From an uncultured Bacteroidia bacterium (GTDB lineage Bacteria; Bacteroidota; Bacteroidia; Bacteroidales; Prolixibacteraceae), in NCBI GenBank assembly GCA_903918045.1, contig CAIXCY010000005.1, forward strand, positions 1 through 33,283: a stretch of 33,283 nt of DNA, in the 5' to 3' direction. Every line of letters starts with the position of its first letter. Position 1 is the stretch's first letter. The translations under genes and the position numbers were made by a program. The notes beneath the pieces are model-generated. The model had not been told where the DNA came from and did not search any database. It saw nothing but the letters and a program-made list of their open reading frames with translations. This document shows positions 6,465-25,550 of the stretch, one piece after another.

Positions 6465-7649
6465 TCAGCAATATTTTTTAATCGCTTCTGCAGCTAATTC
6501 CAATCCCAGTTCTGCGGCTTTTTCAAAATCAAGAGCAGCTTCATGTTGCTGACCCAGATCGAGCCTGGCCAGGCCACGGTAGTAATAAGCTTCAGCCTCA
6601 TCAGGTTTTAATTCAATGGCAGTGGAGTAATCGGCAACAGCACCACCATAGAGCTTAAGATTACATTTTGCACTGCCTCTGTGGTTATAAATCTGCGGAT
6701 AACCGGGGTCCAGCTCAATCACTTTGGTATAATCGGCAATTGCCCCCCTGAAGTCTTCGAGTGCATTCTTTGCAAAACCACGGCTGAACCATGAAAACGA
6801 ATCTGCCGGATCGACAGAAATCGCAAGGGTATAATCAGCCACTGCTCCATTAAAATCCTCAAGGTTGCATTTAGCATTCGCCCTTAGATTATAAATCAGC
6901 GTATACTTTGGATTCAGGTTCAGGACATTTGAATAATCCGAGATCGCCCCACTATAATCGCGTAGTGCATATTTCGAAATGCCCCTGTTATACCAGGCTG
7001 TAACATCCTGTGGATTCAACCGGATTGCCATTGTGAGATCGGCTATTGCTCCGCTAAAATCGCTCATCCCCTTTTTTGCCAACCCCCGGCTGCAATAGGA
7101 CATCGCATCGTAGGGCTCCAGCGAAATGGCTTTGGAGTAATCGGCAATTGCTCCCTTAAAGTTTTTCATCAGGTAATTACTGACGCCGCGGTTATAATAA
7201 GCTTCAATATGTAAGGGATCAATGGTAATGGCAGCCGCGTAATCGTCTATTGCACCTCTGAAATCCTCAATCGTATTCCGTGCATAACCTCTGTTATATA
7301 GCGCAGTGGCATCCTCCGGATCATTGGCAATTGCCGCTGAATAATCGGAGATTGCACCCCGATAATCGTGAAGTGCATTTCTGGCGTTACCCCTGTTATT
7401 GTAGATCATGTGATATTCCGGATCAATCACCAAGGCCTGATCATAATCCGCAATAGCCCCCTCATACTCCTCCAGGTTATATTTTGCATTTCCCCTGTTG
7501 TACCAGAGTTCCGCATTTGCAGGGTTAAGGGTTATTGCTTTCGTATATTCTGCCACCGCACCGGTGTAATCCTCAAGGATAAACATCCCGTTACCGAGCT
7601 CATTGTAATCAATTTTATCAATATCCTGCTTTGACTCCATATCCATCAT
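6465..7649 (-). CDS. Tetratricopeptide repeat protein (about 11 TPRs)
   Basis: Nearly the whole 394-residue protein is built from 34-residue TPR units, each with the pattern WYNRG.AK..L.DY.GAI.DY..AI.L.P. I count eleven units, the first partly degenerate, closing with a helix of the AAELGLELAAEAIKKY type. There is no signal peptide or membrane segment, so it is probably a cytoplasmic scaffold for protein-protein contacts. Units 7-8 and 9-10 match each other as 68-residue pairs, which points to duplication of a two-repeat block. Three Met codons lie at the start (7649, 7646, 7640); any could initiate. No catalytic domain is attached, so the function is unknown. Confidence 0.88.
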   Translation of the reverse strand: MMDMESKQDIDKIDYNELGNGMFILEDYTGAVAEYTKAITLNPANAELWYNRGNAKYNLEEYEGAIADYDQALVIDPEYHMIYNNRGNARNALHDYRGAISDYSAAIANDPEDATALYNRGYARNTIEDFRGAIDDYAAAITIDPLHIEAYYNRGVSNYLMKNFKGAIADYSKAISLEPYDAMSYCSRGLAKKGMSDFSGAIADLTMAIRLNPQDVTAWYNRGISKYALRDYSGAISDYSNVLNLNPKYTLIYNLRANAKCNLEDFNGAVADYTLAISVDPADSFSWFSRGFAKNALEDFRGAIADYTKVIELDPGYPQIYNHRGSAKCNLKLYGGAVADYSTAIELKPDEAEAYYYRGLARLDLGQQHEAALDFEKAAELGLELAAEAIKKYC

Positions 7650-7847
7650 TTATAATATTCGGTGAAGTTATACACCCTTTCCATACAATTACAATAACCA
7701 CCGGTAAAAGGTTTAAGCATCAAAGTTTCCGGATGAAATACTTTGATTTTTAATCAATTTATGGTATTATTGAAAGATCAAATTAAAGATGTCACGGGCT
7801 GTCATCCAGCACGACCATGTAAGAATTATCACCTAATAATCAATTAA

Positions 7848-8888
7848 ATGAAAACTATTTTTACCTATTTTGGAATTGTTTTGGCTTCATTATCAATCAT
7901 TTCGTGCAATGTTAAGCCAAAGGTTGAGCCGGTTCAAAAGACGGAGGTTAGCGAATTTCTCGGTCAATGGACCATTGATATTAACGGAGGCTCTGTCGGT
8001 TGGCTTGAAGTGCGTCAGGAAAAAGATTATCTGGATGCCGATCTGCTCTGGGGCGGAGGAAGCGTTGTCCCTGTAGCCAGCGTTTTTATGACAGATAAAT
8101 ACCTGATCGTAACCCGTACAGACAATGTTGTCAGAACAAAGGATGCAAACAATACTCCGGTTCGGACTCAAATATTGACCAATTGGCTGGAAGTCCAAAA
8201 GAATGGTGACAAAATTGCGGGTTATCTTCTTCATCCGAAAAAGGATGGCAAAGGGATTGATTCCACCGCTTTTTCAGGAACAAAATTGCCTGCACCACCA
8301 CCTGCACCTGACCTGACTAAGGTCAAATTCGGAGCTCCTGTCAACCTTTTTAATGGCAAGGATCTAACAGGCTGGAGATTGATCAATGATAAGCAAAAGA
8401 ATGGTTTCTTTGTCAAGGATGGCGTATTGACCAATGATCCTGCCCAGATTGAAGGAGCCCCTCATGTAAGCTATGGTAATTTACGTACAGATCAGGAATT
8501 TGAAGATTTTAATCTGAAACTTGAAGTTAATGTGCCTGAAGGTTCCAATAGTGGCGTTTACCTGCGCGGTATGTATGAAGTACAGGTTATTGACTCCTAC
8601 GGGAAAGCGCTCGATCCCCACAATATGGGGGCTGTTTATAGCCGGATTACACCTACTTCAGCTGCTGAAAAGCCTGCAGGATCCTGGCAAACAATGGACA
8701 TTACCCTTTGTAACCGCCATGCAACGGTTATTCTGAATGGCGTTAAGATTATTGATAATCAACCTATCTACGGCCCGACAGGTGGTGCGATGAAATCGGA
8801 TGTCTTTACACCAGGTCCAATCTATCTACAGGGAGACCATGGAAAGGTTTATTATAAAAATCTTGTTTTAACGCCGATTCTAAAATAA
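7848..8888 (+). CDS. 3-keto-disaccharide hydrolase-like (DUF1080) lipoprotein
   Basis: The N-terminus MKTIFTYFGIVLASLSIISC is a lipoprotein signal with Cys20 as the lipidated residue. Residues ~37-135 form an N-terminal beta-rich module (FLGQWTIDINGGSVGWLEV). Residues ~160-346 are a DUF1080 domain, opening with the typical VNLFNGKDLTGWR and containing FEDFNLKLEVNVPEGSNSGVYLRG, a jelly-roll fold related to concanavalin-like lectins. Some DUF1080 proteins hydrolyse 3-keto-glycosides, and others may only bind carbohydrate. It is transcribed toward the GH92 genes and separated from them by a long bidirectional hairpin. The absence of a 3-dehydrogenase gene nearby means the keto-sugar pathway cannot be confirmed here. 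Confidence 0.87.
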   Translation: MKTIFTYFGIVLASLSIISCNVKPKVEPVQKTEVSEFLGQWTIDINGGSVGWLEVRQEKDYLDADLLWGGGSVVPVASVFMTDKYLIVTRTDNVVRTKDANNTPVRTQILTNWLEVQKNGDKIAGYLLHPKKDGKGIDSTAFSGTKLPAPPPAPDLTKVKFGAPVNLFNGKDLTGWRLINDKQKNGFFVKDGVLTNDPAQIEGAPHVSYGNLRTDQEFEDFNLKLEVNVPEGSNSGVYLRGMYEVQVIDSYGKALDPHNMGAVYSRITPTSAAEKPAGSWQTMDITLCNRHATVILNGVKIIDNQPIYGPTGGAMKSDVFTPGPIYLQGDHGKVYYKNLVLTPILK

Positions 8889-8892
8889 TACA

Positions 8893-8952
8893 AAACCCAT
8901 CTACACTAAGAAAAGCCTCGGAAATGAGGCTTTTCTTAGTGTAGATGGGTTT
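8893..8952. terminator. Bidirectional terminator with a perfect 27-bp stem
   Basis: Bases 8893-8919 and 8926-8952 are exact reverse complements, with the six-base loop GGAAAT (8920-8925). The inner portion AAGAAAAGCCTC/GAGGCTTTTCTT already resembles a bidirectional terminator. The outer 15 bp continue the pairing without a mismatch. It sits between the convergent DUF1080 and GH92 genes, which fits two-way termination, but the stem is roughly twice the usual length. Confidence 0.85.
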
Positions 8953-9001
8953 CACTTTACACTGCAAATGCGTTAATTTGCAATTTTTGGAAGACGAAGG
9001 T

Positions 9002-11380
9002 TTATTCTCCGCTCATTGATGGTGGAGCATCGCGGGGTTTGCTGCCCCATTTTTTGTTTGGCATAGGTCCCATATTGAAGGTAAGAATACCTCCGGCCGT
9101 GATTTCCTCATGGGAAAGCCAGGCTTTATTCATCGGCTTACCATTCAGGGTAGCGGACTGAATATATTTATTCTCGTGGGAGTTATCGTTGGTATGGATC
9201 ATAAAGATTTTACCGTTTCCGAGGTTGATTGTAACATTTCCAAACAATGGACTCCCAATGGCATAGTTTGGGCTCCCCGGAGTGACTGAATAAAAACCCA
9301 TTGCGCTCAATACGTACCAGGATGAGAGCGACCCCATATCCTCTTCGCCACATATACCACCCGGTCCGGCGCGATAAAGTTCGTCACAGACCTGTCTCAC
9401 CCTTAGTTGCGTCTTCCAGGGCTGACCAGCATAATCATAGAGATAAGCCACATGATGGGAGGGCTGATTTCCCTGCACATACTGACCGATCGTCCCAACC
9501 ACTCCGTCATATTTGGGCGGAGTAATATTGGGTGACATCTCAAAAAAAGTATCCAGCTTTGCAATAAATGGTTTATTTCCTCCGAAAAGGTTAATCAGTC
9601 CCTTTATGTCATGCTGAACCGCCCAGATATACTGCCAGGCTGTTGATTCGGTATAATGACGGTTCGGCCGTTCGCCGAGTAAAAGCGGGTCGAAGTATTT
9701 ATACCAGAAGTGGTCCCCCATCTTCACAATTTCCTGTTTTCGCCCGTTTAAGGGCTCAAGCCACGAACCATCCGCACTTTTGGGGCGCATAAAATGGGAT
9801 TGTGGATCCCACAGATTCTGATAGTTATGTGCCCGTTTCATAAATAAAACATAATCATCGTTATGACCAAGTTCTTTGGCCAGCTGAGCGATACACCAAT
9901 CGTCATAAGCCAGCTCCAGGGTGTTTGGGACAGATTCCGTCACCTTATCATACGGAGCGTACCCAAGCGCGATATACTCAGCAAGACCCGACCTTCCTGC
10001 ATAGGATGGGATTGGAAATCTGGGATTTTCGAGCGCCTTTGTCCGCATCGCCTGGTATAGAAAGTTAACATCAAAATCGTGATAACCCTTCATCCAGGCA
10101 TCAACGATTATCGGTATAAGATGGTCACCCACCATCGCCTCCCCAAAAATATTGAGAAAGTGCTGTGCTGGCAGCCATCCGTAATCCCTGGTTTTTGCAA
10201 CAATCGACTTTAAGAAATCATTTACGTGGTCAGGGGCTATTAAAGTTAGCAGCGGGTGTTGAGAACGGTAGGTATCCCAGCAGGAAAAAGATCCGTAGAA
10301 ATCAAAGCCATTAGCCAGATGCACTTTCTTATCTGAACCAAAGTATTGTCCATCAACATCCTGCGAAATATATTGCCCAACCAGTGAATGGTACATGGCA
10401 GAATAGAAGATCTCCTTCTGATCATTGGTCGCGCCATCAATTTTAATCCTTGATAACTCCTTTTCCCAGATCCTCCGGGCATTATCCCTGACTTTTTCAA
10501 AATCCCAGTCAGGGATCTCAGCCGCTAAATTTTTGCGTGCCCCTTCAATGCTAGTATAGGAGATCCCAACTTTTACCAATATTTGCTCATGGTCATCCGT
10601 TTTGTAGGTAACAAATGCGCCGATGCTTCTCCCCGATTCGCCGTTTTTGTAGGGCCAGATACTGCCACCCGATTCCGGAGTTTTTATATCATTATCGAAT
10701 GTACCATAATAGACAAAAGGCTTGCTAAATTTGGCGACAAAATAGATTTTTCCCAAACCCGCACTTTTAGATCCTTCGATCCTGTTGTTATTCAGGATCT
10801 TTAACTCGGCAAAATCGGTAGCAGAACTATCAGAAATCTGATGTCCCAGATCCAGGATAATCCGTGAATTAATCCCTTTTGGAAACGTATATCGATGAAA
10901 ACCTGCTCTTTGGGTGGTGGTTAACTCAACTTTTACATTGTAGTCCTGCAACAATACAGCATAGTAACCGGGTGTGGCAACCTCATCGGCATGACTGAAC
11001 CTGGACCGGTACCCCTGGCCTGGTTGGTCGGCAGACCCGGGTATGGTCTTCAGCTTATCTCCAACTGCAGGCATCAGCAAGATTTCACCACCATTACTCA
11101 TCCCAACTCCGCTCCAATGGGTATGACTGAAGCCCATAATGGAGTTTCCGTTGTAATTATACCCCGAACAGAAATCCCACCCCTCGGTATCCAGGTCGGG
11201 ACTCAAATGCACCATTGCAAATGGAAGTGCCGGTCCGGGAAACATATGGCCGAAGAACTGAGTGCCGAGGAATGGATTTACATGATCGACTGGGTTTTCA
11301 GACTGAGCATATAGGAAGGATTGGGACCCAATCCCCAAAATAAGAGAAAGGGACAAAAATGTCAGTATGGGTAACTTCAC
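9002..11380 (-). CDS. GH92 family alpha-mannosidase, paralogue A
   Basis: A secreted or periplasmic 792-residue protein with a signal peptide ending near YAQS. GH92 hallmarks appear in order: VNPFLGT, MVHLSPD, SHTHWSGVGM, CWDTYRSQHP (from residue 367), ESTAWQYIW with Glu578 as a candidate acid, GNQPSHHVAYLYDYAGQPWK with Gln639, and EEDMGSLSSWYVLSAMGFY with Asp681. Family members are calcium-dependent, inverting exo-alpha-mannosidases with differing linkage preferences. The C-terminal GSKPRDAPPSMSGE tail is shared in form with the neighbouring paralogue. It is the last gene of the apparent five-gene operon, 22 bp after paralogue B, and its 3' end faces the long terminator. Linkage specificity cannot be read from the sequence. 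Confidence 0.93.
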   Translation of the reverse strand: MKLPILTFLSLSLILGIGSQSFLYAQSENPVDHVNPFLGTQFFGHMFPGPALPFAMVHLSPDLDTEGWDFCSGYNYNGNSIMGFSHTHWSGVGMSNGGEILLMPAVGDKLKTIPGSADQPGQGYRSRFSHADEVATPGYYAVLLQDYNVKVELTTTQRAGFHRYTFPKGINSRIILDLGHQISDSSATDFAELKILNNNRIEGSKSAGLGKIYFVAKFSKPFVYYGTFDNDIKTPESGGSIWPYKNGESGRSIGAFVTYKTDDHEQILVKVGISYTSIEGARKNLAAEIPDWDFEKVRDNARRIWEKELSRIKIDGATNDQKEIFYSAMYHSLVGQYISQDVDGQYFGSDKKVHLANGFDFYGSFSCWDTYRSQHPLLTLIAPDHVNDFLKSIVAKTRDYGWLPAQHFLNIFGEAMVGDHLIPIIVDAWMKGYHDFDVNFLYQAMRTKALENPRFPIPSYAGRSGLAEYIALGYAPYDKVTESVPNTLELAYDDWCIAQLAKELGHNDDYVLFMKRAHNYQNLWDPQSHFMRPKSADGSWLEPLNGRKQEIVKMGDHFWYKYFDPLLLGERPNRHYTESTAWQYIWAVQHDIKGLINLFGGNKPFIAKLDTFFEMSPNITPPKYDGVVGTIGQYVQGNQPSHHVAYLYDYAGQPWKTQLRVRQVCDELYRAGPGGICGEEDMGSLSSWYVLSAMGFYSVTPGSPNYAIGSPLFGNVTINLGNGKIFMIHTNDNSHENKYIQSATLNGKPMNKAWLSHEEITAGGILTFNMGPMPNKKWGSKPRDAPPSMSGE

Positions 11381-11402
11381 AATCGCTTATTTTAATGTTT
11401 CA

Positions 11403-13778
11403 CTATTTACTCATCGATGGTGGTGCATCTTCCGGCCGGGAACCCCATTTCCTGTTAGGCTCGGGTCCCATTTCGAAACTTATGATTCCACCGTCTGTTA
11501 TCTCCTTCTGCGAAAGCCAGGTTTTATTCAATGGTTTTCCGTTCAGCGTAGCCGACTGGATATATTTGTTTTCATGTGAGTTGTTATTGGCTTCAATTGT
11601 AAAGGTCTTCCCATTGCCAAGATCAATTACAGCATGTCCAAACAGCGGGCTGCCGATCGCATAAAAGGGAGCTCCGGGAGTTACTGCATAAATGCCCATA
11701 GAACTTAACACATACCATGATGAGAGTGAACCCATATCTTCGTTTCCACATATGCCGCCGGGACCGCTGCGATAAAGTTCTTCAGTGACCTCTCGTGCCC
11801 TTTGCTGTGTCTTCCATGGCTCACCCGCAAAATCGTAAAGGTAAGCGACATGGTGAGATGGCTGGTTTCCATGCACGTATTGCCCGATCGTTCCAACAAC
11901 ACCCACATATTTTGGAGGAGTGATATTGGGGCTCATCTCAAAGAAAGTGTCCAATTTTGCAACAAACTGTTTATTTCCGCCAAACAGGTTTATCAACCCT
12001 TTCACATCATGCTGAACTGACCAGATGTATTGCCAGGCATTCGATTCGGTGTAATGACGATTCGGACGTTTACCGACGAGGAGGGGATCAAAATATTTAT
12101 AATAAGTGTGGTCACCCGCTCTGGCAATCTCCTGTTCGCGACCATTAAGCGGCTCAAGCCAGGAACCGTCAGTCATTTTGGGGCGCATAAATTTAGATAC
12201 AGGCTCCCATAGGTTTTGATAGTTATGGGCCCTTTTCATAAACAGCTCATAATCTTTAGTTTTTCCCAGTTCTTTGGCGAGCTGAGCGATACACCAGTCG
12301 TCATAAGCCAGTTCCATCGTATTGGGCACCGACTCAGTAACTTTATCGACGGGGGTATACCCAAGTTCCATATAATATTTGAGTCCTGATCTTCCTGCAT
12401 AGTGGGGAACAGGCAATTTGGGCTCCTCCAGCGCCTTTTTGCGCATTGCTTCATACAGGAAATTCACATCAAAATCACGAAATCCTTTTACATAGGCATC
12501 CACAATGATCGGAATCAGGTGGTCGCCAACCATCGCTTCGCCAAAAAGATTGAGAAAATGCTGTGCCGGAAGCCAGCCATAATCCCTGGTTGCCGCGGCT
12601 ATTGACTTAATAAAATCGTTCACATGCTCTGGGGCTGTTAGAGTCAGAAGGGGGTGCTGAGAGCGGTAGGTATCCCAGCAGGAGAACGATCCGTACATAT
12701 CGTATCCCTTTGTCTCATGAACTTTCTTGTCAGCCCCTCTGTATTTTCCATCCACATCCTGCGAAATATACTGAGCCAGAAAGGAGTGGTACAATGCTGA
12801 ATAAAAGATCTCTTTCTGATCATCGGTAGCCCCGTCAATTTTTATTCTGGACAACTCCTTCTCCCATATTTCACGTCCCTCATTTCTGATTCGGTCGAAA
12901 TCCCAGTGAGGAATCTCAGTTTTAAGATTTTTCCGTGCCCCTTCAACACTGGTATAAGATATCCCGACCTTGATCAGAATCTGTTCATTCTCATTTGTTT
13001 TATAGGATACAAAAGCCCCGATGTTCCTTCCGGCCTCTCCGTTTTTGTAGGGCCAGAGGCTCCCTCCTGACTCAGGGGTTTTCAGGTCGTTATCAAAGGT
13101 TCCATAATAGGTAAAGGGGCGGCTGAATTCGGCTACGAAATAGACGTTTCCCAGACTCGTACTCTTTGACCCTTCGATGCGGTTATTGTTGATTATTTTC
13201 AAATCGGATAACTCTTCGGAGGTATTATTTCCGATCTGATGACCCAGATCCAGGATAACCCGTGCACTTTCCGACTTTGGGAAGGTATAACGATGAAATC
13301 CGGCCCTTTGCGTTGAGGTTAACTCAACTCTCACATTACAATCCTTCAGCAATACCGAATAGTATCCCGGAGAGGCCGACTCACTGGAGTGGTCAAAATG
13401 GGAACGATACCCCTCCTCAGGATGTTCCGGAGATCCGGGAATTGTTTTTAGTTTATATCCGACAGTTGGCATCAGGAGCACCTCTCCGCCATTGACCATT
13501 CCAACACCGCTCCAGTGCGTGTGACTGAAACCCATAATTGTATTGTCGGAATAGATATATCCGGCACAATAGGTCCATCCCTGGGTATTCATATCCGGAC
13601 TAAGGTGAACCATGGCATAAGGGCGCGACACCCCGGGAAAAGTATGGCCAAAAAAGTCAGTCCCAAGGAACGGGTTAACATGGGTAACCGGGCTGTCGGT
13701 TTGAGCCTCCGCAAAGCTTTTAAATCCTGGTCCCAGCAGGAAAAAAAGTGATAATAAACTAAATATGAAGTGATTCAT
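11403..13778 (-). CDS. GH92 family alpha-mannosidase, paralogue B
   Basis: A 791-residue GH92 protein, co-linear with paralogue A from end to end and roughly three-quarters identical by eye in the central catalytic region, so the pair arose by tandem duplication. The signal peptide runs to about FAEAQT. It carries the same motif series, including SHTHWSGVGM, CWDTYRSQHP, ESNAWQYIW, GNQPSHHVAYLYDFAGEPWK (Gln639, same position as in A) and NEDMGSLSSWYVLSSMG. Differences cluster near the ligand-facing loops, for example GYDMYGSFS versus GFDFYGSFS and QYFGSDK versus KYRGADK. It follows the ceramidase-like gene by 22 bp. Confidence 0.93.
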   Translation of the reverse strand: MNHFIFSLLSLFFLLGPGFKSFAEAQTDSPVTHVNPFLGTDFFGHTFPGVSRPYAMVHLSPDMNTQGWTYCAGYIYSDNTIMGFSHTHWSGVGMVNGGEVLLMPTVGYKLKTIPGSPEHPEEGYRSHFDHSSESASPGYYSVLLKDCNVRVELTSTQRAGFHRYTFPKSESARVILDLGHQIGNNTSEELSDLKIINNNRIEGSKSTSLGNVYFVAEFSRPFTYYGTFDNDLKTPESGGSLWPYKNGEAGRNIGAFVSYKTNENEQILIKVGISYTSVEGARKNLKTEIPHWDFDRIRNEGREIWEKELSRIKIDGATDDQKEIFYSALYHSFLAQYISQDVDGKYRGADKKVHETKGYDMYGSFSCWDTYRSQHPLLTLTAPEHVNDFIKSIAAATRDYGWLPAQHFLNLFGEAMVGDHLIPIIVDAYVKGFRDFDVNFLYEAMRKKALEEPKLPVPHYAGRSGLKYYMELGYTPVDKVTESVPNTMELAYDDWCIAQLAKELGKTKDYELFMKRAHNYQNLWEPVSKFMRPKMTDGSWLEPLNGREQEIARAGDHTYYKYFDPLLVGKRPNRHYTESNAWQYIWSVQHDVKGLINLFGGNKQFVAKLDTFFEMSPNITPPKYVGVVGTIGQYVHGNQPSHHVAYLYDFAGEPWKTQQRAREVTEELYRSGPGGICGNEDMGSLSSWYVLSSMGIYAVTPGAPFYAIGSPLFGHAVIDLGNGKTFTIEANNNSHENKYIQSATLNGKPLNKTWLSQKEITDGGIISFEMGPEPNRKWGSRPEDAPPSMSK

Positions 13779-13800
13779 AATGACAAAGCTGATTTAACTA

Positions 13801-15081
13801 TTATTTCGTCGGTGCGGGACTTTCATTGATAAACCTTATCGCCTCCTCTTCGTATATACAACCTGTCATTTCGCCGAGCGATGTATGAGAGATGTAGTTA
13901 TAACGTTCGAAACCGCCAAAATCCTCTTTCGTAAGCATATAACCGAATGCGTCATTAGTCAGGCCAAAAAGAAATGGCTGGGTGCTGTTCATTTTTCTTT
14001 TCACGTAAAACCCAATGTTTGGGAGCGCTTCACCCGGGACTGTCACAACCTGTGCCTTACCAATATTCAAAAGGTTTAGCCTTGTTGAGACTTTGGAGAA
14101 ATCGCTATTCCTTGTCCGTGCCTCTGCCGCGAGCGGTGAATGCTGAAATACGTAACGCAATTTTTCGGAATCAATTGGAAAGGTAATCACTTTTGAGGCG
14201 CAATAAATTTCGGGATTTTGCTGTACTTCAGCGGGGTCGATAATCCGTAAGGCCTCGTCTGCCAGTAAATTGCCAATGCGAATACACTCATTCCAGTCGT
14301 TGGCCTCCTTGCCATTTTCACGTCGGGTATCGGCAGTAACCATTCCCCCTTGTGCGCTGTTCATGAAGATTGCCATCCCTCCTACCTTCGATTCAATCCG
14401 GTCGTAAAGCGGTCCGCATAAATCGGGGCTGATTAATTTGCCCCCGGTCCCAAGAATCTCAGGATGAATGGCATAATTGACAAGTGTTGCAATCGGCTTT
14501 CCACTATTCTTTCCCGAAGTGGCGATAGCCTGAATAATTCCGCAACGCGGATCGTATAGTTTATCTGCATAATAGTTATACGCAATCTTACCTTTTGCCT
14601 CACCTACTGCAGTCCGAAGTGATGCAGGTTCCAGTTTTGAAACAGCTTCATCGACCGCTTCTGCAATTTTTTTCACACACATATCCAGGTATTTTAAGTC
14701 GGCTCCGGTATTCCCTTTTTCATCTGTAAAACCGTATGCATCGGGACAGCTGTGTGCATGAGTAGCTCCAATAAGGACATTTTCGGGTGCAATACCCTTG
14801 ATCAGTTTTCGGGAACGGTCACCCAGGTAGGCTGGCCATCCGATATTATCGACACTGACGATCGCAAATCGGGTTGCCCCTTTTTCAAGGACAAAAGCAC
14901 GAACGGTGAGCTCCCCTTTTATACCTATCGGCATTTCAGGAGTTCCCATTCCACCCGATATAGGAATTAACTCTTTGGGTGTAATATTTCTCATGGCAGC
15001 TCCCGCCTTAAAGCTTTGTGCATTGACATTTGACAAGCAACATAAGAGTATGAATACTAATGTTGTAATTTTCATCTTCAT
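13801..15081 (-). CDS. Neutral/alkaline ceramidase-family protein, secreted, catalytic serine region altered
   Basis: The protein has a cleavable signal peptide (cut near NAQS) and the fold-defining motifs of the neutral ceramidase N-terminal domain. Likely zinc ligands are conserved: His108 and His110 in ATHAHS, His206 in VNYAIHPE, Glu351 in VPGEALP and Tyr381 in DAFGYML. In known ceramidases the nucleophilic Ser lies in a GDVSPN-type motif; here the aligned segment is AQGGMVTAD (243-251), with no Ser. At 426 residues it lacks the C-terminal Ig-like domain of full-length ceramidases (about 650 aa). It may be a metal-dependent amidase or esterase with another substrate. The next gene in the operon starts 22 bp downstream. 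Initiation at the second Met (15075) is also possible. Confidence 0.82.
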   Translation of the reverse strand: MKMKITTLVFILLCCLSNVNAQSFKAGAAMRNITPKELIPISGGMGTPEMPIGIKGELTVRAFVLEKGATRFAIVSVDNIGWPAYLGDRSRKLIKGIAPENVLIGATHAHSCPDAYGFTDEKGNTGADLKYLDMCVKKIAEAVDEAVSKLEPASLRTAVGEAKGKIAYNYYADKLYDPRCGIIQAIATSGKNSGKPIATLVNYAIHPEILGTGGKLISPDLCGPLYDRIESKVGGMAIFMNSAQGGMVTADTRRENGKEANDWNECIRIGNLLADEALRIIDPAEVQQNPEIYCASKVITFPIDSEKLRYVFQHSPLAAEARTRNSDFSKVSTRLNLLNIGKAQVVTVPGEALPNIGFYVKRKMNSTQPFLFGLTNDAFGYMLTKEDFGGFERYNYISHTSLGEMTGCIYEEEAIRFINESPAPTK

Positions 15082-15108
15082 AATGGAATGTTTTAAAAAT
15101 TGTAGTTA

Positions 15109-16410
15109 TTAATAAATGTAAATCGGGTTTGAATAGAGCCAGGGGATAAGTTTACCTTGCAATTTAAGATGTATTTCGATGCGGTAGGCCCCTTTTTCAA
15201 GTACCTTATTCGATGAAATCTGATAGCAATTCTCAGAGGAAACCGCAATTGTCTTGCCATCATGAATCAACCGGAATTGTCCGGGCAATGGTGATTCTGC
15301 ACGGAGCATTTTTACCTGATCAATCCGGACGGAGTCCCCAAGAATAGCGCAAACACTGTCGTTCCTGTTCAACCCAAAATATTGAAATCCTTTTGCGTCA
15401 GCCAGCGTTTTAAAGGCGGTAAAAAGATGCCCCTTTTTCAGGTTATCTGCCAGTGAATGTGTGGTCAGTGAATCTGCAACAACATAATTTGTGATGTAAT
15501 TAAAGCCGGTTTCATAAGTATCAATCAGAAATTTGAATACCCAGCCGCTTTTGTCTGGTTTTTCAAAAAGCCATTTGTTCCAGAATTTCACCTCCATGGT
15601 ATCGAGTACGTGGTTGTTGTTTCCCACCCACAGAATCCTCCCATCCTGTAAATATCTGGCCCGGATATTCTGATTCTCATGCGAATCAACAGCCGAAAAC
15701 CCAACTATTTTCCTGATCTTATTCAATGAATCCCAGCGGGACAGAATGGTGGTCTGCTCGTTAAAAAACTCACGCAGCGCCCAATGCCTGTATCTGTTCC
15801 CGTTGATGATGATGTTGAAAAGGATAGGGACAGGCGACTGATCCCTTGTATCCGTATGGAAATTATAGATCTCCATACCCTGGTAAAATGGGTTGGCCCA
15901 GTTGTGAGGTTCTTCAGTATGAGCATAAAAGATAATTCCCCCCTTCGAAACAATATTCCGGGCAACACTATCTTTGTCTGCCTTCCAGTCGATTATAGCC
16001 GGTTGAAGAGGCCAGCAATCGAATCCCTGTTTTTCAGTTCCCGGTTCGATCAGAACCCCGTCGTGCATGCCGCGATATCCCTTGGGCAAGGTATCTATAT
16101 CGCCATGAGGATGGTCGGTAAGAAAGATGAAATCGATCCCGTCTTTTTTTGCTGCCGGAATGATATCATCCAATGTCCCTCTGCTATCATGCGATAAATA
16201 ACTATGAACATGAAGGACTCCTCTGTATGTATTTAGTTTGGTTTGTGAAAGAACCTCACGTCGAAATTTTTGAAGATCTCTTACCTCGCGGTCATAGCTG
16301 GGATAAGTAACCCAATAATGCCAGATGCCTGGAGTAAATGTTATCAATAATAAAAGAACGAGGAATCCGGATAGCAGTAAAAGAAGCCGTTTAATTATCT
16401 TTTTTAACAT
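15109..16410 (-). CDS. Membrane-anchored PHP-domain phosphoesterase (CehA/McbA type)
   Basis: The N-terminus is a single membrane helix (LLLLLSGFLVLLLLITF) with no clear cleavage site, so the catalytic part is probably tethered to the periplasmic face of the inner membrane. PHP metal-binding motifs are seen in order: His67-x-His69 in LHVHSYLSHDSRGT, Asp99-His100 in FLTDHP, His164 in FYAHTEE, and Asp242-x-His244 in VDSHEN. The C-terminal ~130 residues are a beta-rich domain without recognised motifs. PHP proteins of this type hydrolyse phosphoester, carbamate or related bonds using a bi- or trinuclear metal site. It lies between two ceramidase-family genes with spacers of 27 and 21 bp, strongly suggesting a shared pathway. 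Confidence 0.82.
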   Translation of the reverse strand: MLKKIIKRLLLLLSGFLVLLLLITFTPGIWHYWVTYPSYDREVRDLQKFRREVLSQTKLNTYRGVLHVHSYLSHDSRGTLDDIIPAAKKDGIDFIFLTDHPHGDIDTLPKGYRGMHDGVLIEPGTEKQGFDCWPLQPAIIDWKADKDSVARNIVSKGGIIFYAHTEEPHNWANPFYQGMEIYNFHTDTRDQSPVPILFNIIINGNRYRHWALREFFNEQTTILSRWDSLNKIRKIVGFSAVDSHENQNIRARYLQDGRILWVGNNNHVLDTMEVKFWNKWLFEKPDKSGWVFKFLIDTYETGFNYITNYVVADSLTTHSLADNLKKGHLFTAFKTLADAKGFQYFGLNRNDSVCAILGDSVRIDQVKMLRAESPLPGQFRLIHDGKTIAVSSENCYQISSNKVLEKGAYRIEIHLKLQGKLIPWLYSNPIYIY

Positions 16411-16431
16411 GTATAGGGGATATTCTCAATT

Positions 16432-17820
16432 TTAATTTTTTGTAACAATATCGGTTAGGTGGCGGATAAGCTCTACTGTATATTCTCCCATATTAGGTCC
16501 GAACCAACCCATAATCTTGGGTTCGTAGGCATCGAGATAGAAATAGCGCCCTGGGATAATATAGCCTACGTAACTGCCGTTAAAGCTAGAAACATTGGCG
16601 CTAAAACCCTTTACAGCCAAGCTGTTTTTTATCTGAAGTGCGTACTCTCCACTAAAATCACTGGGTGTAGTTATCCAGATCAGGTTTCCGATTCGTACCG
16701 TTTGGAGGTAGACATTCTGAGGAATTGGCATCAGTTTTTCACTAATCCTTGAGATAAGGTTTAGCCTTGTCGTTAATCGGATGTTATAGGTGGGTAAGGC
16801 TATCTTTAACGTCAGTGATGATAAGGTTATCTTATCCTGCAATACCGTCTTGGGCAGATAAACCAGCAGACTGTCGGCCAACGATTCCCCGATTAATTTT
16901 GGTTTATCGAATCCTTTTCCTTCTCCTGAAGGGCTCTGACTCCCTACGGATCCGGCACAAAAGATAGCGATATCAGCAACTTTGTTCTCAATTTTACGCT
17001 CCCAATAGCCCGGATAATCGGCGCTAAACTCCATGTTCTCATCTCCAAGAGTTGTAGCATGTGCAGAGAATGAGCCGACTATAGCCTTTCTGCCGCCATG
17101 CTGCTCAATTGAAATGTAACTGAAATCACTGTTTTTTGTCCCTGATTCACCGATCAGCCGGTTTCTGGTATAGGTGGAGGCATCAAAGCTACCGGTCCCA
17201 ATGCTGGCAGGACGCAGATCTGCAATTGCTGTTATTACAGCCTTTGAAATTTGAATAACAAGCCATTTGGAGATATTTTTATTCTCTTTACCTGCAAACT
17301 GTTCCCCGATAAATCCAGGTCCCCATCCACCCACACTTGAGTGGCTATGAGATGCCGAGTAAAAAACCTGCGACCGTTTAATCCCTTTTTGAGCTAGTAG
17401 TATTGTCACCTCATCGATTATATTTGGCGGCATGATCAATAAGTCGGCACCAACAATAACCACAACCTGATTATTTACTTTCAAGGCGGCCGCCTTTACA
17501 AAGATGCTGTCATGAACCCCCGTTGCTCCTTTCCCTTTTCGTGCGCCAAAACCGGCCAGGGGAACCTCTTTGAATTTTCCTTCAAGATATTGATCCTCAA
17601 AATTATTTAATCCTGGAGTAATGCTTATTTTCGCAAACCCTGCACTCAAAGAGTCATAATCGCTTTTGCAATCACGCTTTAAACTATCGACTCGTACCTG
17701 AGTTCTTCTGTAATAATCTCTTTTAAAATAGGGAGTGCTATCCACCGATGTGGTGACCATGAGAAGAATCACAATTAATATTAGCAGGATAGCTCCCAGA
17801 ATAAATCCAAATCGTTTCAT
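16432..17820 (-). CDS. Neutral/alkaline ceramidase-family protein, membrane-anchored
   Basis: A 462-residue protein with an N-terminal membrane anchor (ILGAILLILIVILLMV) rather than a cleavable signal. Ceramidase-like motifs are His158 and His160 in ASHSHS, His254 in SFSAHATTLG, and the serine segment VGSQSPSGE, in which Ser296-Pro aligns with the Ser-Pro of the ceramidase GDVSPN motif. The zinc-binding Glu of the PGE motif is replaced by TPSDF (Asp388), while the NGSYVGYI segment keeps the distal Tyr region. It therefore keeps the nucleophile but has a modified metal site, the opposite of the paralogue at 13801. The C-terminal Ig-like domain is absent. It is the first gene of the five-gene block. 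Confidence 0.82.
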   Translation of the reverse strand: MKRFGFILGAILLILIVILLMVTTSVDSTPYFKRDYYRRTQVRVDSLKRDCKSDYDSLSAGFAKISITPGLNNFEDQYLEGKFKEVPLAGFGARKGKGATGVHDSIFVKAAALKVNNQVVVIVGADLLIMPPNIIDEVTILLAQKGIKRSQVFYSASHSHSSVGGWGPGFIGEQFAGKENKNISKWLVIQISKAVITAIADLRPASIGTGSFDASTYTRNRLIGESGTKNSDFSYISIEQHGGRKAIVGSFSAHATTLGDENMEFSADYPGYWERKIENKVADIAIFCAGSVGSQSPSGEGKGFDKPKLIGESLADSLLVYLPKTVLQDKITLSSLTLKIALPTYNIRLTTRLNLISRISEKLMPIPQNVYLQTVRIGNLIWITTPSDFSGEYALQIKNSLAVKGFSANVSSFNGSYVGYIIPGRYFYLDAYEPKIMGWFGPNMGEYTVELIRHLTDIVTKN

Positions 17821-18277
17821 AATTGTTTTTTTAGGTCAAAGACTGACAGTTAGTGCAATAATACAATAGAAAGCAAAACTAAACACGTGGAATTTTATTC
17901 ATTATCCATTTTATATTAACAAAAACATATTAATTTCAATTTTGTTATGCAAATTTAAAATCAGGCAAGTAGGGAGGTAGATCTCTTTTGTCCTGTGTGG
18001 GGTTCTTCCCATTGACCGGTCAGGGATTTTATGGCAAAGGAAAAAATGAATAGCTTGTCGAACTGGCAAAAACGATTTCCTAAAAACCGGTATATTGCAG
18101 AATGCCTGGCAATGTCTATTTACTTGTTATAAGAGTTTAGAACAGGGACATGATCATGGCCGCATTACTGCCTCAGACCGAAAGATCAGGAATGAGGAGG
18201 TAAAATAGAGATCGGATTGGAGCGGAAGAGTGTCTTTTCAGGACATAAAATGTCACCCTCTCACTACCCTGAAACTT
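17821..18277. other. 457-bp gap with possible transposase remnants; probable operon boundary
   Basis: This gap upstream of the ceramidase/PHP/GH92 block probably holds its promoter. Two minus-strand TAnnTTTG-like boxes lie at 17874-17881 (TAGTTTTG) and 17950-17957 (TAAATTTG), neither with a good -33 element. A 33-codon plus-strand frame at 18031-18132 encodes NSLSNWQKRFPKNRYIAECL. The adjacent, frame-shifted segment through about 18200 reads YKSLEQGHDHGRITASDRKI, recalling the HGR motif of ISAs1-type transposases. Both are too short and degenerate to call genes. A small inverted repeat, GACATaaaATGTC, is at 18242-18254. Confidence 0.35.
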
Positions 18278-19414
18278 TTAAACCTTAAGAAATGTCCCTT
18301 TTTTATACATATAGTACAGAATTACGTACTCTATACCTAACCTTCCGACCGACTTAAACGACAAATAATAATTGCCCATAAATTGTTCGAGACCAAAGAA
18401 GATTTTATGCGAAATGGCTGCAAAATCGATAAAATGAACCCCCATATAAATCGCAATGCTGTTCATGCCGATCACCTTAAGCCAGAAGGCCCACCGCTGG
18501 TAACCTTTCACATCGATGATAAAATAAAATGCAGCCATCAGCATGAAGCTAAGACCCGAAGAAAACAGCACAAAGGTGGGGTTCCAGATTGGTTTAATGA
18601 TCGGAAACCAGATGCTTAGCACTTGTCCGGTGATAATCAGCGCCAGCCCGGTGACGAATAAGGTAACCGTTTTACGGATCATCGGATTTTCGCAAGTCAA
18701 CCACCGAAATTTAAGTGTTTGAGCGCGCAGGATTGTGCTTGCAAAAACGCCGCTCATCACCGTTGCGACAAAACCCAGCGATCCCAGGAACCAGGTGTAG
18801 GGTGCCGGTGCGTCATCGAAACGACCGAAGACCAGTTGCTCGACATATTTTGCGATGTTCGATTCTCTGGTCAGTATCCCCGCTTCATGACCCGGAACAG
18901 CAATAAATTGTAAAATGGCCCAATAGGTAATTAACAATGCGGCAGTTATTCCAAGTTGATATTTAAGGTTTAACCGGCTATAGATGATCACGCTAAAGAG
19001 ATAGCCAATCGCAATCGACTGCAGCGTATCGTGAATAATAAACATCTTTGAAAGATCAAAGGTGAGCAAATTGCATTGTGAGATCATACCTAAGATGAAT
19101 AATATCCCAGCCCGTTTTGCTGAATGGAGGTAAATATTTTTTGTTGATTCCCCCGATGCAAGTCGTTTGCTCAGCGAAAAAGGGATTGACATGCCCACCA
19201 TAAACAGAAACAGCGGCATGATCAGATCGTAAAAATGAAACCCTTCCCACTGCTGGTGCTCCATCTGTATCGCCAGGGTATTGAAAAACGGGAGATTGCT
19301 CGCCTTTGCAAGATCCTCAATGACATGACTGCCCCCGATGATCCACAGCATATCGAACCCGCGAAGGGCATCCAACGACATTAATCGGGTGGGTTTTATA
19401 AATTGATTTTCCAT
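18278..19414 (-). CDS. HGSNAT-like transmembrane acyltransferase (DUF5009 type)
   Basis: A polytopic inner-membrane protein of 378 residues with about ten hydrophobic segments. The opening RLMSLDALRGFDMLWIIGG and the following HQQWEGFHFYDLIMPLFLFM match the heparan-alpha-glucosaminide N-acetyltransferase (HGSNAT) family. His53 aligns with the histidine thought to carry the acetyl group across the membrane in the human enzyme. Bacterial relatives presumably acylate amino sugars or other glycans in the periplasm, but most are untested. The gene lies 62 bp downstream of an SGNH esterase gene, so one gene product could add acyl groups while the other removes them. The intervening spacer holds a dispersed-type palindrome. 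Confidence 0.88.
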   Translation of the reverse strand: MENQFIKPTRLMSLDALRGFDMLWIIGGSHVIEDLAKASNLPFFNTLAIQMEHQQWEGFHFYDLIMPLFLFMVGMSIPFSLSKRLASGESTKNIYLHSAKRAGILFILGMISQCNLLTFDLSKMFIIHDTLQSIAIGYLFSVIIYSRLNLKYQLGITAALLITYWAILQFIAVPGHEAGILTRESNIAKYVEQLVFGRFDDAPAPYTWFLGSLGFVATVMSGVFASTILRAQTLKFRWLTCENPMIRKTVTLFVTGLALIITGQVLSIWFPIIKPIWNPTFVLFSSGLSFMLMAAFYFIIDVKGYQRWAFWLKVIGMNSIAIYMGVHFIDFAAISHKIFFGLEQFMGNYYLSFKSVGRLGIEYVILYYMYKKGTFLKV

Positions 19415-19476: not shown

Positions 19477-20619
19477 TTATTGTAAAATTTTCCGGATTAT
19501 TTTTTCATACGCATCGGCATAGGCCCGCATACCGTAATCTGTAGGATGAATACCGTCAACCATCCCATCCATAGGCATATTGATCTCTTCGCAGGTAAGG
19601 TAGAAAATATTTCGAACACCCTCTTTCTGAAGTTGTTCGAATGCCTTTTTTGAGGCAATATTGGCCCTGATATAATCGTCATATTTCTTTTTATTGACCA
19701 TTCCGTCGGTATATCCCACATGATCAACGATCAGGATTGGAGCCTGGTGAAGCGTCCGGATCTGTCGAACGGCTTCAATGGTAGCTTTTTCAATTTCGGG
19801 AGAGGGTCGTGAAACAAGGTTAGGTAAGCAATCCAGGATAAAAAGTGTTGCATCGATCTCATTAATGAAATTCAGCACCTCTTTTTCGAGCATTCCGTTT
19901 CCGGAAAATCCAAGGTTGATAAGGGGATAGGGGAGCTCGCGGTTCAGCATTCCGGTCCAGGCCATTCCGGGACGCGAAGCACATCCACCCTGAGCGATAG
20001 AGGTACCATAAACAACGATTGGTTTTTCAACCGATGGCATTACCCACGAAAGTTCTGCTACCTTTGGTACCCCGATCTCCATCCATTTCACATGGTTATA
20101 GAGTGGCAGAAACAGCTGGTATTCCCTTCCCTGAGATCCCGCCGGATAGGAATCGAGATTGCTGAATTTGTATTTTATCGTGTCTCCAAAGGAATATCCT
20201 CCTGCACTCCATACTGCTTTCCCGTGCTCATCTGTGGTATAGAGATCAAGACCACTCACACCCGTTGAGGTCATATGCGGAAAAGAAATGCCTCCTGAAA
20301 CCTGGTATGCGACTTTGATCTCAGAGGCATTTGATCTGAAGCGAACCGTTATTCCGGCACAATTTTCGGAGAGTCCCCACACATCCTTACGAACCTTCTC
20401 CTTCGCGCGCAGCGGGAGACGCCCATAGGTCCCTTTTAACTCTTCGTTCCAGCCAACACCTTGCAATATCAGAGATTGTTGTTTTTGAAGATCGTACCAG
20501 TTCAGGTCGTCTTTTACGGAGGTAACAACAGGTTTTGGAAAGGAGAGTTCAGGTTTTTGCTCAGCGGCAGCAAATAGTGAAATATAGGTAAATGTGAGGA
20601 GTAATGCGGTAATTTTCAT
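19477..20619 (-). CDS. SGNH/GDSL-family esterase, secreted
   Basis: A 380-residue exported protein with signal peptide (ALLLTFTYISLFAAA). Residues ~40-190 form a beta-sandwich-like N-terminal module. The catalytic domain follows, with block I VYGTSIAQGG (Ser207), block II Gly in NLGFSGNGM, an Asn-bearing block in DCLPNLV, and block V DGIHPTDYG (Asp355, His358). This two-domain layout is typical of carbohydrate esterases that remove acetyl or other acyl groups from glycans. The acyl group and glycan are unknown. A -7 box is predicted at 20679-20686, so the gene may begin its own transcript. Confidence 0.86.
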   Translation of the reverse strand: MKITALLLTFTYISLFAAAEQKPELSFPKPVVTSVKDDLNWYDLQKQQSLILQGVGWNEELKGTYGRLPLRAKEKVRKDVWGLSENCAGITVRFRSNASEIKVAYQVSGGISFPHMTSTGVSGLDLYTTDEHGKAVWSAGGYSFGDTIKYKFSNLDSYPAGSQGREYQLFLPLYNHVKWMEIGVPKVAELSWVMPSVEKPIVVYGTSIAQGGCASRPGMAWTGMLNRELPYPLINLGFSGNGMLEKEVLNFINEIDATLFILDCLPNLVSRPSPEIEKATIEAVRQIRTLHQAPILIVDHVGYTDGMVNKKKYDDYIRANIASKKAFEQLQKEGVRNIFYLTCEEINMPMDGMVDGIHPTDYGMRAYADAYEKIIRKILQ

Positions 20620-20698: not shown

Positions 20699-22987
20699 TC
20701 ATTTATATGGCCCGATCTTTTCAAACGGAATAGTATGCCAAGGAACAAGATAACCTTTGTAATCAGCCGGAATAGCAGGATGTTCTTCCGCCTTAATCAG
20801 CTCATTATTTATAACCTCAAACTGCCTGGATTTTCGCAGGATGAAGGTCTCCGCATTAATCACCAGATTGTCCGATGCAAAATTGATGTCTGGATTGGTA
20901 AGCAGATTTTTTATTGCAGGATACCTGTTTTGCCAGAATTTACTCTGCCAGTCGGTTGTGTGGATCGCTTTATACATCGGGTGTTCAGGACTGTTTATGG
21001 CCTCCTGCCACCGCTTATCACCCCAGGCAGACTGGCTGATTGCCGCATGGCAATCGGCAAAGATATTTCCCTCGATGAAGTTATCCTTTCCGCCGTGAAT
21101 CTGAATCCCGCCGAAGTGATTATTTGAGGAGCGCAGGAAGAGGTTTTCGTAGATACTGAACCCGCTTATGGCGTCATCAAGCCTGACCCCTGCTGCCATG
21201 TGCAGATTCGGGATACCAATATCGTGAAAGAAGTTCCACCGAATAATATTTCCGCGTAGCAAAGGATTTCCCCAGACATCGATAGCGCCCTGGTCATCCG
21301 ATTCGATAACGCATTTGGTAAATTCATTGAGTTCAACGAGCATGTCATTCCCTTCGAGGCGGATCCCACTGCTGGGAATATTGGCAAAGAGACAGTGGCG
21401 CACCTGTATTCCGTCGCCCTCAAGTACGATAGCCGGAGTATAGGTTCGGTCAATTCTCGAAAGATTGCTGATTTTACAGTTTTCGATGATGCTGTGAGAA
21501 CTAACAAGCTTGAGTTTGTCGCCGGAGCTGATATCGATTCCGCCACGTCCCATACTTTCGATGGTGCATGAATGAACCAGGTGGTTATTACCTCCGGCTA
21601 TTTTTAAACCGAGACCTGAAGTATTGGAAACAGAGCAATTTGCTACAGTGAGATGACTGCAATTCGTAAAAATCATCCCGTCGCCACGGATATACTGGAA
21701 ATCAAGTCCTTTGATGCATAGATAGTTGCAATTTTCGGCAAGTAAAGCAGGACCTCTCAGGCTTAAGATCATTTTTGATGGCTGCATATCGGTCAGAGGA
21801 AGGTACCAGATCTTTCCTTCTGTGACTGAGATGCACCATTCTCCCGGATTATCAAGCTCTGAAAGGGCATTTACAACATGCCATTTGCTCTTGCCAAAGC
21901 CGTAGTTATTCGTTGGAGGTTGAAGTTCTATGGTCGAATCGGCAGGTGAGATCCCCTTCATTTTCTCATAGGCATCAGCCCAGGAGTAGAGCCAATATCC
22001 ATGCAGCCAGACATCCCGATCTTTTGCCCAACTCCGTGGCCGCTCACTCTTGAAATCCTTCAACGCAATGGTGGTATCCCGGTCATTTGGCCACCGGGAC
22101 AAAAGTTGAGGCTGACTATCGTTGAATAATTCAGGGATCGGAAACGTGATGAATGTCGCAGCACCACCGGCTGAGCGTTTGCTTGAAAACCCTCCAAAGA
22201 CCAGGCTGTCGATCCCGTCGATGTTATTTGACTTGAAATCGGCCACCCACACTTTTAATTTTGAACTTTCCGGAAGACGTGCAACAGTCTCTGCATTTGT
22301 CTCCCGCTGCCAGTTATTCAGAACCTGACCGCCATTGAGGATAATATGTTTATCGGTCGAAGAGGATCTAATCACCAATGGGTGCTCTTTTGTTCCTGAA
22401 TTTTCTGCATTGAAGCGGATAGGCTCGGACAGGTTAATCGAATCATCTTCAAGAATTATCTGGATGGTTCCGGCGGGAAGATCTCCCTTCTTCAGGATCG
22501 GAGGAACAGCATCAAGCGCCTGCTTCAGCGTTGAATAGACGATCTTTTTTGAATCCTTTTTATCTCTGATTTTAGGAACTGTTGATACAAAAATTGAAGC
22601 GACAGGTTTTGTGCCGGCAGGGATGATGGTATGGCCTTTCGGATTTAAACCATTGAGTTTTTGTTCGAGTTCTTCAATAATAAGGCGGTGGTGGTCCGGA
22701 AGAACGGGTAGTGACTTTGCCTTGATTAACGTTGCCCTGCAATTTTTAATCTGTTTTGCCTCAAACTGCGCTTTGGCAAGACGCAGATAAATCAACGATT
22801 GCCACGCTTCAGAGATTGTGTCTTTGGCAATAACCAATTTGTACTGGTCGATAGCCTGTAACAGATGGTTGGTTTTCCAGTATTTGTCAGCCTTGACAAG
22901 GTCCTTTTCCAATGCCGAAGTTTGCGCATTGACGTTCGGAGAATTGCAGAGGACAATGAGGCAGAATAAGATGATTATGCTTTTCAT
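20699..22987 (-). CDS. Secreted right-handed parallel beta-helix protein, possibly GH141-like
   Basis: The 762-residue protein has a signal peptide cut near NAQT. Residues ~25-112 are helical and TPR-like (YWKTNHLLQAIDQYKLVIAK). From about 145 onward it becomes a beta-helix: an opening module (IQIILEDDSINLSEPIRF, then HIILNGGQVLNNW) and later stacked coils such as LCIKGLDFQYIRGDG, LTVANCSVSNTSGLGLKI and GIQVRHCLFANIPSSGIRL. The PELFNDSQPQLLSRWPND segment recalls GH141-type enzymes, where it precedes the substrate groove, but catalytic residues cannot be assigned by eye. Other beta-helix hydrolases and lyases remain possible. The N-terminal helical extension is unusual for the family. It lies 105 bp downstream of the GH2 array. 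Confidence 0.8.
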   Translation of the reverse strand: MKSIIILFCLIVLCNSPNVNAQTSALEKDLVKADKYWKTNHLLQAIDQYKLVIAKDTISEAWQSLIYLRLAKAQFEAKQIKNCRATLIKAKSLPVLPDHHRLIIEELEQKLNGLNPKGHTIIPAGTKPVASIFVSTVPKIRDKKDSKKIVYSTLKQALDAVPPILKKGDLPAGTIQIILEDDSINLSEPIRFNAENSGTKEHPLVIRSSSTDKHIILNGGQVLNNWQRETNAETVARLPESSKLKVWVADFKSNNIDGIDSLVFGGFSSKRSAGGAATFITFPIPELFNDSQPQLLSRWPNDRDTTIALKDFKSERPRSWAKDRDVWLHGYWLYSWADAYEKMKGISPADSTIELQPPTNNYGFGKSKWHVVNALSELDNPGEWCISVTEGKIWYLPLTDMQPSKMILSLRGPALLAENCNYLCIKGLDFQYIRGDGMIFTNCSHLTVANCSVSNTSGLGLKIAGGNNHLVHSCTIESMGRGGIDISSGDKLKLVSSHSIIENCKISNLSRIDRTYTPAIVLEGDGIQVRHCLFANIPSSGIRLEGNDMLVELNEFTKCVIESDDQGAIDVWGNPLLRGNIIRWNFFHDIGIPNLHMAAGVRLDDAISGFSIYENLFLRSSNNHFGGIQIHGGKDNFIEGNIFADCHAAISQSAWGDKRWQEAINSPEHPMYKAIHTTDWQSKFWQNRYPAIKNLLTNPDINFASDNLVINAETFILRKSRQFEVINNELIKAEEHPAIPADYKGYLVPWHTIPFEKIGPYK

Positions 22988-23092
22988 AAGTTTTAATAGT
23001 TTTAGTCAAGGCTATATCCGGAATTCTCAATTGCTATTTGTCGTTACAAACGACATTCCATTTTTCCCTCGTTGCAAACAAGGGGGAGCTCT
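22988..23092 (-). repeat. Two hairpins sharing a GTTTGyAACGA core in the GH2/beta-helix spacer
   Basis: On the minus strand two small hairpins follow the GH2 stop codon. One pairs bases 23077-23084 with 23066-23073 (eight pairs including one U-G wobble, 3-nt loop). The other pairs 23049-23055 with 23039-23045 (seven pairs, 3-nt loop). Each contains GTTTG[C/T]AACGA, so they look like two diverged copies of one unit. Neither is followed by a T-run, so they are not typical terminators. Confidence 0.5.
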
Positions 23093-25471: not shown

Positions 25472-25550
25472 TCCTTGTATTTTGGGTTTTGAAAGCAATT
25501 GGAAATGTATATTTTGAATTTATATTGTTTTTTTGTAAAATGTGATGTTA

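Follow-up and report, generated by a model that had tools for sequence, protein, structure and literature searches.

The closest described counterparts of the locus examined here are the neutral and alkaline ceramidases, the CehA/McbA-type metallohydrolases, the GH92 alpha-mannosidases and the polysaccharide utilisation loci of Bacteroidota. Neutral ceramidases bind zinc through two His, a Glu and a Tyr. A review-type remark in PMC9436119 counts neutral ceramidase, LpxC and other zinc enzymes as similar in their active sites, and a passage of PMC8292978 describes CehA as an esterase-type carbamate hydrolase. Proteins resembling the first three of these groups are encoded side by side in an uncultured Prolixibacteraceae bacterium (assembly GCA_903918045.1, contig CAIXCY010000005.1). 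The window analysed is this whole contig, 33,283 bases, from an assembly of 281 contigs that is 98.8% complete with 3.99% estimated contamination. Five open reading frames (ORFs), all intact and on the minus strand, encode CerA, a hydrolase with a predicted neutral-ceramidase fold and an N-terminal membrane anchor (462 aa; 16432-17820); PHP, a predicted PHP-fold metallohydrolase with an N-terminal membrane helix and a C-terminal beta-sandwich (433 aa; 15109-16410); CerB, a second ceramidase-family protein, with a signal peptide (426 aa; 13801-15081); and the alpha-mannosidase-family proteins GH92a (791 aa; 11403-13778) and GH92b, its 76% identical paralogue with a GTG start (792 aa; 9002-11380). 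The original prediction, which took this run for a glycolipid-degrading operon, had put the spacers at 21-27 bp; they measure 21, 27, 22 and 22 bp, and a single transcription unit is plausible from the layout. No description of such a locus appeared among the papers listed by our literature searches.

We found that CerA, PHP and CerB constitute a conserved module of their own, which relatives carry without the GH92 pair. Relatives were collected by searching a single genome of each species for exact matches to peptide patterns taken from CerA, which yielded 41 loci, all from Bacteroidota by their record titles and all containing CerA by construction; genes were called adjacent if their matches lay less than 400 bp apart, and were counted only at loci with room. 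Below, L numbers denote loci, G numbers genomes of the genus and C numbers contigs of the genome studied here. PHP adjoins CerA in 24 of 39 such loci, CerB adjoins PHP in 16 of 22, and the three genes were found in the identical 13 of the 18 genus genomes. A GH92 gene, by contrast, directly follows CerB in none of the 15 loci that have CerB and at least 2.5 kb of downstream sequence; L007 carries a different GH92, about 35% identical, in the same direction further downstream, beyond a GH78. The original prediction had named failure of the five-gene order to recur outside close strains as a refuting outcome; this is what was seen for the five genes, while the ceramidase-fold/PHP core within them is conserved.

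The GH92a orthologues belong to another conserved locus. At 79% identity or more they occur in 14 of the 18 genus genomes, 12 of which hold the module; G001 and G012 have GH92a without the module, and G003 has the module without a close GH92a. GH92b stands alongside in some relatives, SusC/SusD genes lead several of the loci, and KDH and TPR neighbours that are also found here are retained in several. A purple-acid-phosphatase-type gene lies near GH92a in 9 of 13 fetched loci. The GH92a genes of relatives are preceded by large proteins, of which three of the four searched (from L103 and L101) had no Pfam match and the fourth had a weak propeller match. In L103, proteins of about 750 aa beside GH92a (7589-9904, 12462-14696 and 14967-17219, minus strand) gave no Pfam match at 0.001, and other GH92a loci hold proteins similar to them. 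The window also encodes, at 2413-4284, a BT_1020-type beta-propeller protein with a sialidase-like CBM, whose orthologues in L111, L112 and L113 are close to the GH92 locus of these three relatives.

Module and GH92 locus meet in the 22-bp spacer between CerB and GH92a (13779-13800, minus strand). Nucleotide homology to module relatives ends at 13789-13862 in 16 of 18 loci among the matches listed, at or slightly inside the end of CerB, and homology to GH92-locus relatives ends mostly at 13666-13748, 30-110 bp inside the start of GH92a. Such a join could be an assembly error, in which the end of a GH92 contig was misjoined to CerB: the arrangement is present in one genome only, and the window is an entire contig of an assembly with 281 contigs and 3.99% estimated contamination. 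However, the join sits in a 22-bp spacer flanked by two intact genes, and this 98.8% complete genome lacks the phosphatase gene found ahead of GH92a in relatives, its best match being 28% identical. Loss of the phosphatase fits a real deletion or rearrangement, and we consider an assembly error very improbable. Because of the junction data and the missing phosphatase, it is more likely that a real rearrangement brought the GH92 pair behind CerB. A weaker link to GH92 persists in L007's different GH92 and in a 29-bp element, described below, that two GH92 loci, of four with a readable head, share.

The predicted family names held, by Pfam scores above cut-off for CerA, CerB and both GH92 proteins, and by motifs and fold for PHP. 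CerA matches Ceramidase_alk at 47.7 bits (cut-off 32.1) and CerB, barely above the cut-off, at 33.8 bits (E 2e-8); fold and Pfam score agree on the PF04734 catalytic-domain family. Structural models place CerA in the neutral-ceramidase fold and PHP in the PHP fold. The zinc-ligand positions, mapped by alignment to 2zws, are conserved among relatives and probably form a metal site. The mapped ligand Glu is replaced in CerA by Asp388, and S296, the Ser of the SPN motif, is present in 23 of 25 relatives' sequences. In CerB, H108, H110, H206, E351 and Y381 are invariant in all 16 sequences. The C-terminal domain of ceramidases is absent from CerA, whose end aligns to 2zws residue 489, and CerB is only 426 aa long. 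PHP scores 25.5 bits against PF02811, barely below the cut-off of 26.4, and its sole NCBIfam match is CehA/McbA (NF038032), a family named after enzymes that cleave carbamate esters, at 38.2 bits, under the cut-off of 80; invariant metal motifs and the modelled fold further back its family identity. GH92a and GH92b match the GH92 catalytic domain at 599 and 587 bits, with both GH92 Pfam domains found. GH92a (Pfam 9.1e-180) aligns near full length with 7zgm, 6f8z and 2wvx and retains the aligned Glu and a Glu-Asp pair near its C-terminal half, residues that we take to be catalytic.

Anchors and signal peptides were called from simple hydropathy and reading by eye, with no trained predictor. By these means the N-termini of CerA and PHP are strongly hydrophobic and appear uncleaved, and those of CerB, GH92a and GH92b resemble signal peptides, which agrees with the earlier proposal that the first two products are tethered and the remaining three exported. 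Tethering of the first two seems to be a retained feature. A strong hydrophobic start, with no cleavage site visible by eye, was found in 25 of 25 PHP proteins, in 10 of 10 copies of CerC (a third ceramidase-family protein of about 520 aa) and in 13 of 13 BD-FAE esterases, 3 of which match a lipobox pattern. In the CerA family 37 of 40 ORFs begin with such a hydrophobic stretch, the exceptions being two contig-end fragments and one different ceramidase-like protein. A lipobox-like motif occurs in 12 of these 40; in 11 it is LISC, in records labelled Cytophagaceae, Cytophagales or Spirosoma. Tethering was perhaps reached by two routes. CerB, GH92a, GH92b, GH78 and the PhoPQ-related proteins look cleavable, and the GH92 of L007 appears anchored.

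The substrate first proposed was a mannosylated inositol-phosphoceramide (GIPC) or similar glycosphingolipid, from which GH92 would remove mannose, with PHP cutting the phosphodiester and the ceramidase-like enzymes the amide. Plant GIPCs carry Man or GlcN(Ac). CerA keeps metal-site residues in a neutral-ceramidase fold, the anchors suit an amphiphile, PF04185 phosphoesterase-family proteins lie beside CerC, and two GH92-locus heads share the 29-bp element. Yet relatives do not conserve GH92 as part of the operon, the phosphodiesterase role of PHP is only putative, and recurrent amino-sugar N-acyl genes are left unexplained. Moreover, CerA is 17-18% identical to the ceramidase of Pseudomonas aeruginosa, whose C-terminal domain it lacks. 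Another member of the Bacteroidota, Tenacibaculum maritimum, has a predicted ceramidase that a passage of PMC5561996 gives as 33.5% identical to the P. aeruginosa enzyme, far closer than CerA. We regard a GIPC-like substrate as very unlikely.

The gene neighbourhoods support the idea that predicted acyl- and phosphoester-type hydrolases surround the core in relatives. Fetched flanks were limited to 10 kb, so that neighbour counts are minimums, and families were named from one or few representatives each. Among the 41 CerA loci, at least 12 have a BD-FAE esterase, at least 9 a PhoPQ-related protein, at least 7 a beta-propeller protein, which in its orthologues from the genome studied here includes a PF04185 phosphoesterase domain, and at least 6 a GH78, after CerB. 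CerC is found at 10 or more CerA loci and at 9 or more among 25 PHP loci. Within the genus, 14 of 18 genomes encode it, namely 12 of the 13 that hold the module and 2 of the 5 that lack it, and in G003, G006, G011 and G013 it lies about 8 kb from CerB, in convergent orientation. In the genome studied here it lies on contig C4, accompanied by two genes for BD-FAE esterases and two for phosphoesterase-family proteins. Several GH92 genes were also seen on C4 (L114, L115 and L167), together with this arm.

Amino-sugar genes recur as well. A NagX-like transmembrane acyltransferase adjoins CerA here, across a gap of 457 bp (18278-19414, minus strand; NCBIfam NF046061 at 215.8 bits, under its cut-off of 480), and in L009, L010, L011 and L013, and lies two genes off in L006. 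A YdjC sugar-deacetylase-type gene is immediately upstream of CerA in L022, L036 and L041, the last of which ends in a PIG-L gene, and L025 encodes a sialidase-type BNR_2 domain fused to a YdjC deacetylase domain (1372-3579) upstream of SusC-SusD-CerA-PHP. On contig C16 (L116:9140-11465) a further ceramidase-family gene is followed by an HGSNAT/NagX-type acyltransferase; two Gfo/Idh/MocA oxidoreductase genes precede it. Three Cytophagaceae or Spirosoma records also have a fatty-acid-hydroxylase-family gene upstream of CerA, immediately so in L030 and L032 and at a distance of several genes in L045, the one locus where the family was checked with Pfam.

These genes could point to lipid A/lipopolysaccharide or a related N-acyl-glucosamine glycolipid, on which ceramidase-fold enzymes would act at N-acyl groups, esterases at O-acyl groups and phosphoesterases at phosphates, with the glucosamine cleaved or re-acetylated. 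In favour are the NagX-like gene beside CerA here and in four relatives and nearby in a fifth, the C16 pair, the YdjC and PIG-L genes of other loci, the 29-bp element ahead of an exo-beta-D-glucosaminidase-type GH2 and ROK kinase operon, and the likeness between neutral ceramidase and LpxC active sites remarked on in PMC9436119. Amino-sugar genes may, however, be common in such genomes, and we infer the substrate from neighbours alone; we find it quite improbable. If no lipid is involved, the ceramidase-fold proteins would be N- or O-deacetylases of a plain acylated polysaccharide. The SusC/SusD, GH78, GH2, GH31, GH127, BD-FAE and SGNH neighbours fit this, as does the low number of acyl-CoA dehydrogenase genes, but anchored CerA, PHP, CerC and BD-FAE would be unexpected for a soluble oligosaccharide, and there would be no need for as many as three ceramidase-fold enzymes. 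This explanation is, in our view, unlikely.

The 457-bp region upstream of CerA contains a conserved block recognisable in all eight aligned loci, strongest in five and weaker in L009, L010 and L013. Within the region are a 29-bp element, GTTAAWATNNRATGNATANTGAATAAAAT (17892-17920, minus strand), and, between this and CerA, a second conserved block, TTTCTATTGTATTATTGCA (17854-17872, minus strand). At up to 3 mismatches the 29-bp element has 31 sites in 14 of the 18 genus genomes, one to five in each, and a reversed-sequence control had 0 sites in all 18. It is present in all 13 module genomes and, among the five without the module, in G012 alone; in 9 of the 13 (G000, G003, G006, G009, G010, G011, G013, G015 and G017) it stands upstream of CerA. 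Sites were traced to genes in the genome studied here and in selected relatives. Here there are five, all ahead of a correctly oriented gene at distances of about 72 to 306 bp, measured to the earliest candidate start codon: about 72 bp before CerA, 187 bp before the GH2, with its exo-beta-D-glucosaminidase-type domain, and ROK kinase genes, 121 and 123 bp before two SusC/SusD operons, and 306 bp before PKD-SusC-SusD-PhoPQ. A sixth site, with 5 mismatches, lies ahead of a further SusC. On contig C30 (L168, 1-17618) we observed three consecutive SusC/SusD pairs with the element about 120 bp before each SusC (2, 3 and 5 mismatches). The element precedes PKD-SusC-SusD-PhoPQ-CerA by 203 bp in L034 and lies upstream of a PKD gene in L017; a weak site within CerA in L038 is probably chance (the null for that search was 0). 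Among the four GH92a loci with a readable leading SusC, it was found in G004 (3 mismatches) and G017 (4). In G016 it heads a neighbouring SusC operon. Given the 63 TonB-plug matches of the genome studied here, the element is selective. It is likely a promoter or regulator site.

The best-supported account, which we hold with somewhat less than even confidence, is that CerA-PHP-CerB is a deacylation module for an imported N-acylated glycoconjugate, to which GH92 was added secondarily. Gene identities, conservation and co-occurrence were computed here, as were modelled folds, metal-site residues, hydropathy-based anchors and the element; activity, substrate class, order of steps, co-transcription and the role of the element are inferred from them. 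CerA and PHP would be held at the membrane by their N-terminal anchors, with CerB exported and free in the periplasm. As zinc amidase-type enzymes, CerA and CerB would remove N-acyl (or O-acyl) groups, and PHP, as a metal hydrolase, would take off an ester or phosphate group. Their target would be an amphiphilic N-acylated glycoconjugate, of amino-sugar or sphingoid type, imported by SusC/SusD-type transporters under a promoter element shared with the module. The module's partners, encoded in other parts of this genome, would be esterases, phosphoesterase-family proteins and a third enzyme resembling ceramidases. The rearrangement would have set two alpha-mannosidase genes behind the module, where its promoter would drive them and their products would trim alpha-mannose. 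Judged by the amino-sugar neighbours, the substrate would be a glycolipid that bears glucosamine; judged by the fold alone, a sphingolipid; and judged by the many glycosidases, a decorated glycan.

Several observations weigh against this deacylation account. PHP is not next to CerA in 15 of 39 loci, mainly Cytophagaceae or Spirosoma records, so CerA can work without it, and CerB is absent after PHP in 6 of 22. CerB has, read by eye, no Ser where the SPN Ser of 2zws aligns, and its match to 2zws is weak (E 0.015). Co-occurrence of CerC with the module is incomplete, two genomes having CerC alone. No copy of the element with 5 or fewer mismatches stands before the leading SusC of the GH92 loci of G006 and G013. 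With only 2-4 acyl-CoA dehydrogenase matches in each of the 13 module genomes and 1-3 in each of the other five, fatty-acid use has little support, and many neighbours (GH78, GH28, GH31 and GH127) are ordinary glycan genes. We know of no activity for any close relative of the module proteins. The original glycolipid interpretation is supported in part, by the core, its anchoring and the nearby hydrolase families, and not by conservation of five genes. A wider proposal, which we consider possible but rather doubtful, is a dispersed regulon under the 29-bp element that imports a glycolipid carrying phosphate and N-acyl groups, similar to lipid A or to a glycosphingolipid, and takes it apart with up to three ceramidase-fold amidases (two anchored), the PHP hydrolase, esterases and glycosidases; it would be the glycolipid counterpart of a polysaccharide utilisation locus.

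The remainder of the window adds context. A terminator-like hairpin of 20 pairs follows GH92b (8899-8946, minus strand); it is symmetric and may act on both strands. Its stem sets it apart from the other sites in the scan, in which such hairpins as a class showed no excess (7 found, 9.2 expected). An SGNH/GDSL esterase gene (19477-20619, minus strand; PF14606, 5.1e-61) neighbours the NagX-like gene, and upstream of both, at 20699-30591, are three GH2 genes and a beta-helix protein, a region with no copy of the element at up to 3 mismatches. Several loci of the same genus have similar, gapped GH2/beta-helix/SGNH/NagX runs on the upstream side of CerA. No SusC/SusD pair was seen among 20 window proteins searched with Pfam and/or NCBIfam, nor any TonB-plug match on the window's contig (C5).

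If correct, these proposals would give a genetic handle on the use of N-acylated glycolipids by environmental Bacteroidota and a working role for ceramidase-fold proteins too distant for the ceramidase label, and would show how a single promoter element can unite a pathway despite the scattering and reshuffling of its genes between species. They also illustrate that a tight five-gene run in a single genome can be a recent joining of two units.

Set against described systems, the proteins here share about 18% identity with neutral/alkaline ceramidases (PF04734; 2zws, 2zxc and 4wgk). They are shorter, at 426-519 aa against 646 and 688, and lack the C-terminal domain; the mapped Glu is Asp in CerA and the Ser is absent in CerB, CerA and CerC carry a membrane anchor, and the gene partners differ. 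PHP resembles CehA/McbA-type metallohydrolases and BVU_3505 (3e38) in its modelled PHP barrel, C-terminal beta-sandwich and conserved metal motifs, but falls below the Pfam PHP and NCBIfam cut-offs and has an N-terminal membrane helix. GH92 alpha-mannosidases (7zgm, 6f8z and 2wvx) align near full length with those here, which, unlike them, are placed behind CerB. Unlike polysaccharide utilisation loci, this contig has no SusC/SusD that we found, and amidase- and esterase-type families are many. Like such loci, a SusC/SusD pair accompanies the module or CerA in at least 9 of 41 loci (L017, L018, L024, L025, L033, L034, L035, L039 and L041), and a promoter-type element is common to the SusC/SusD operons and the module.

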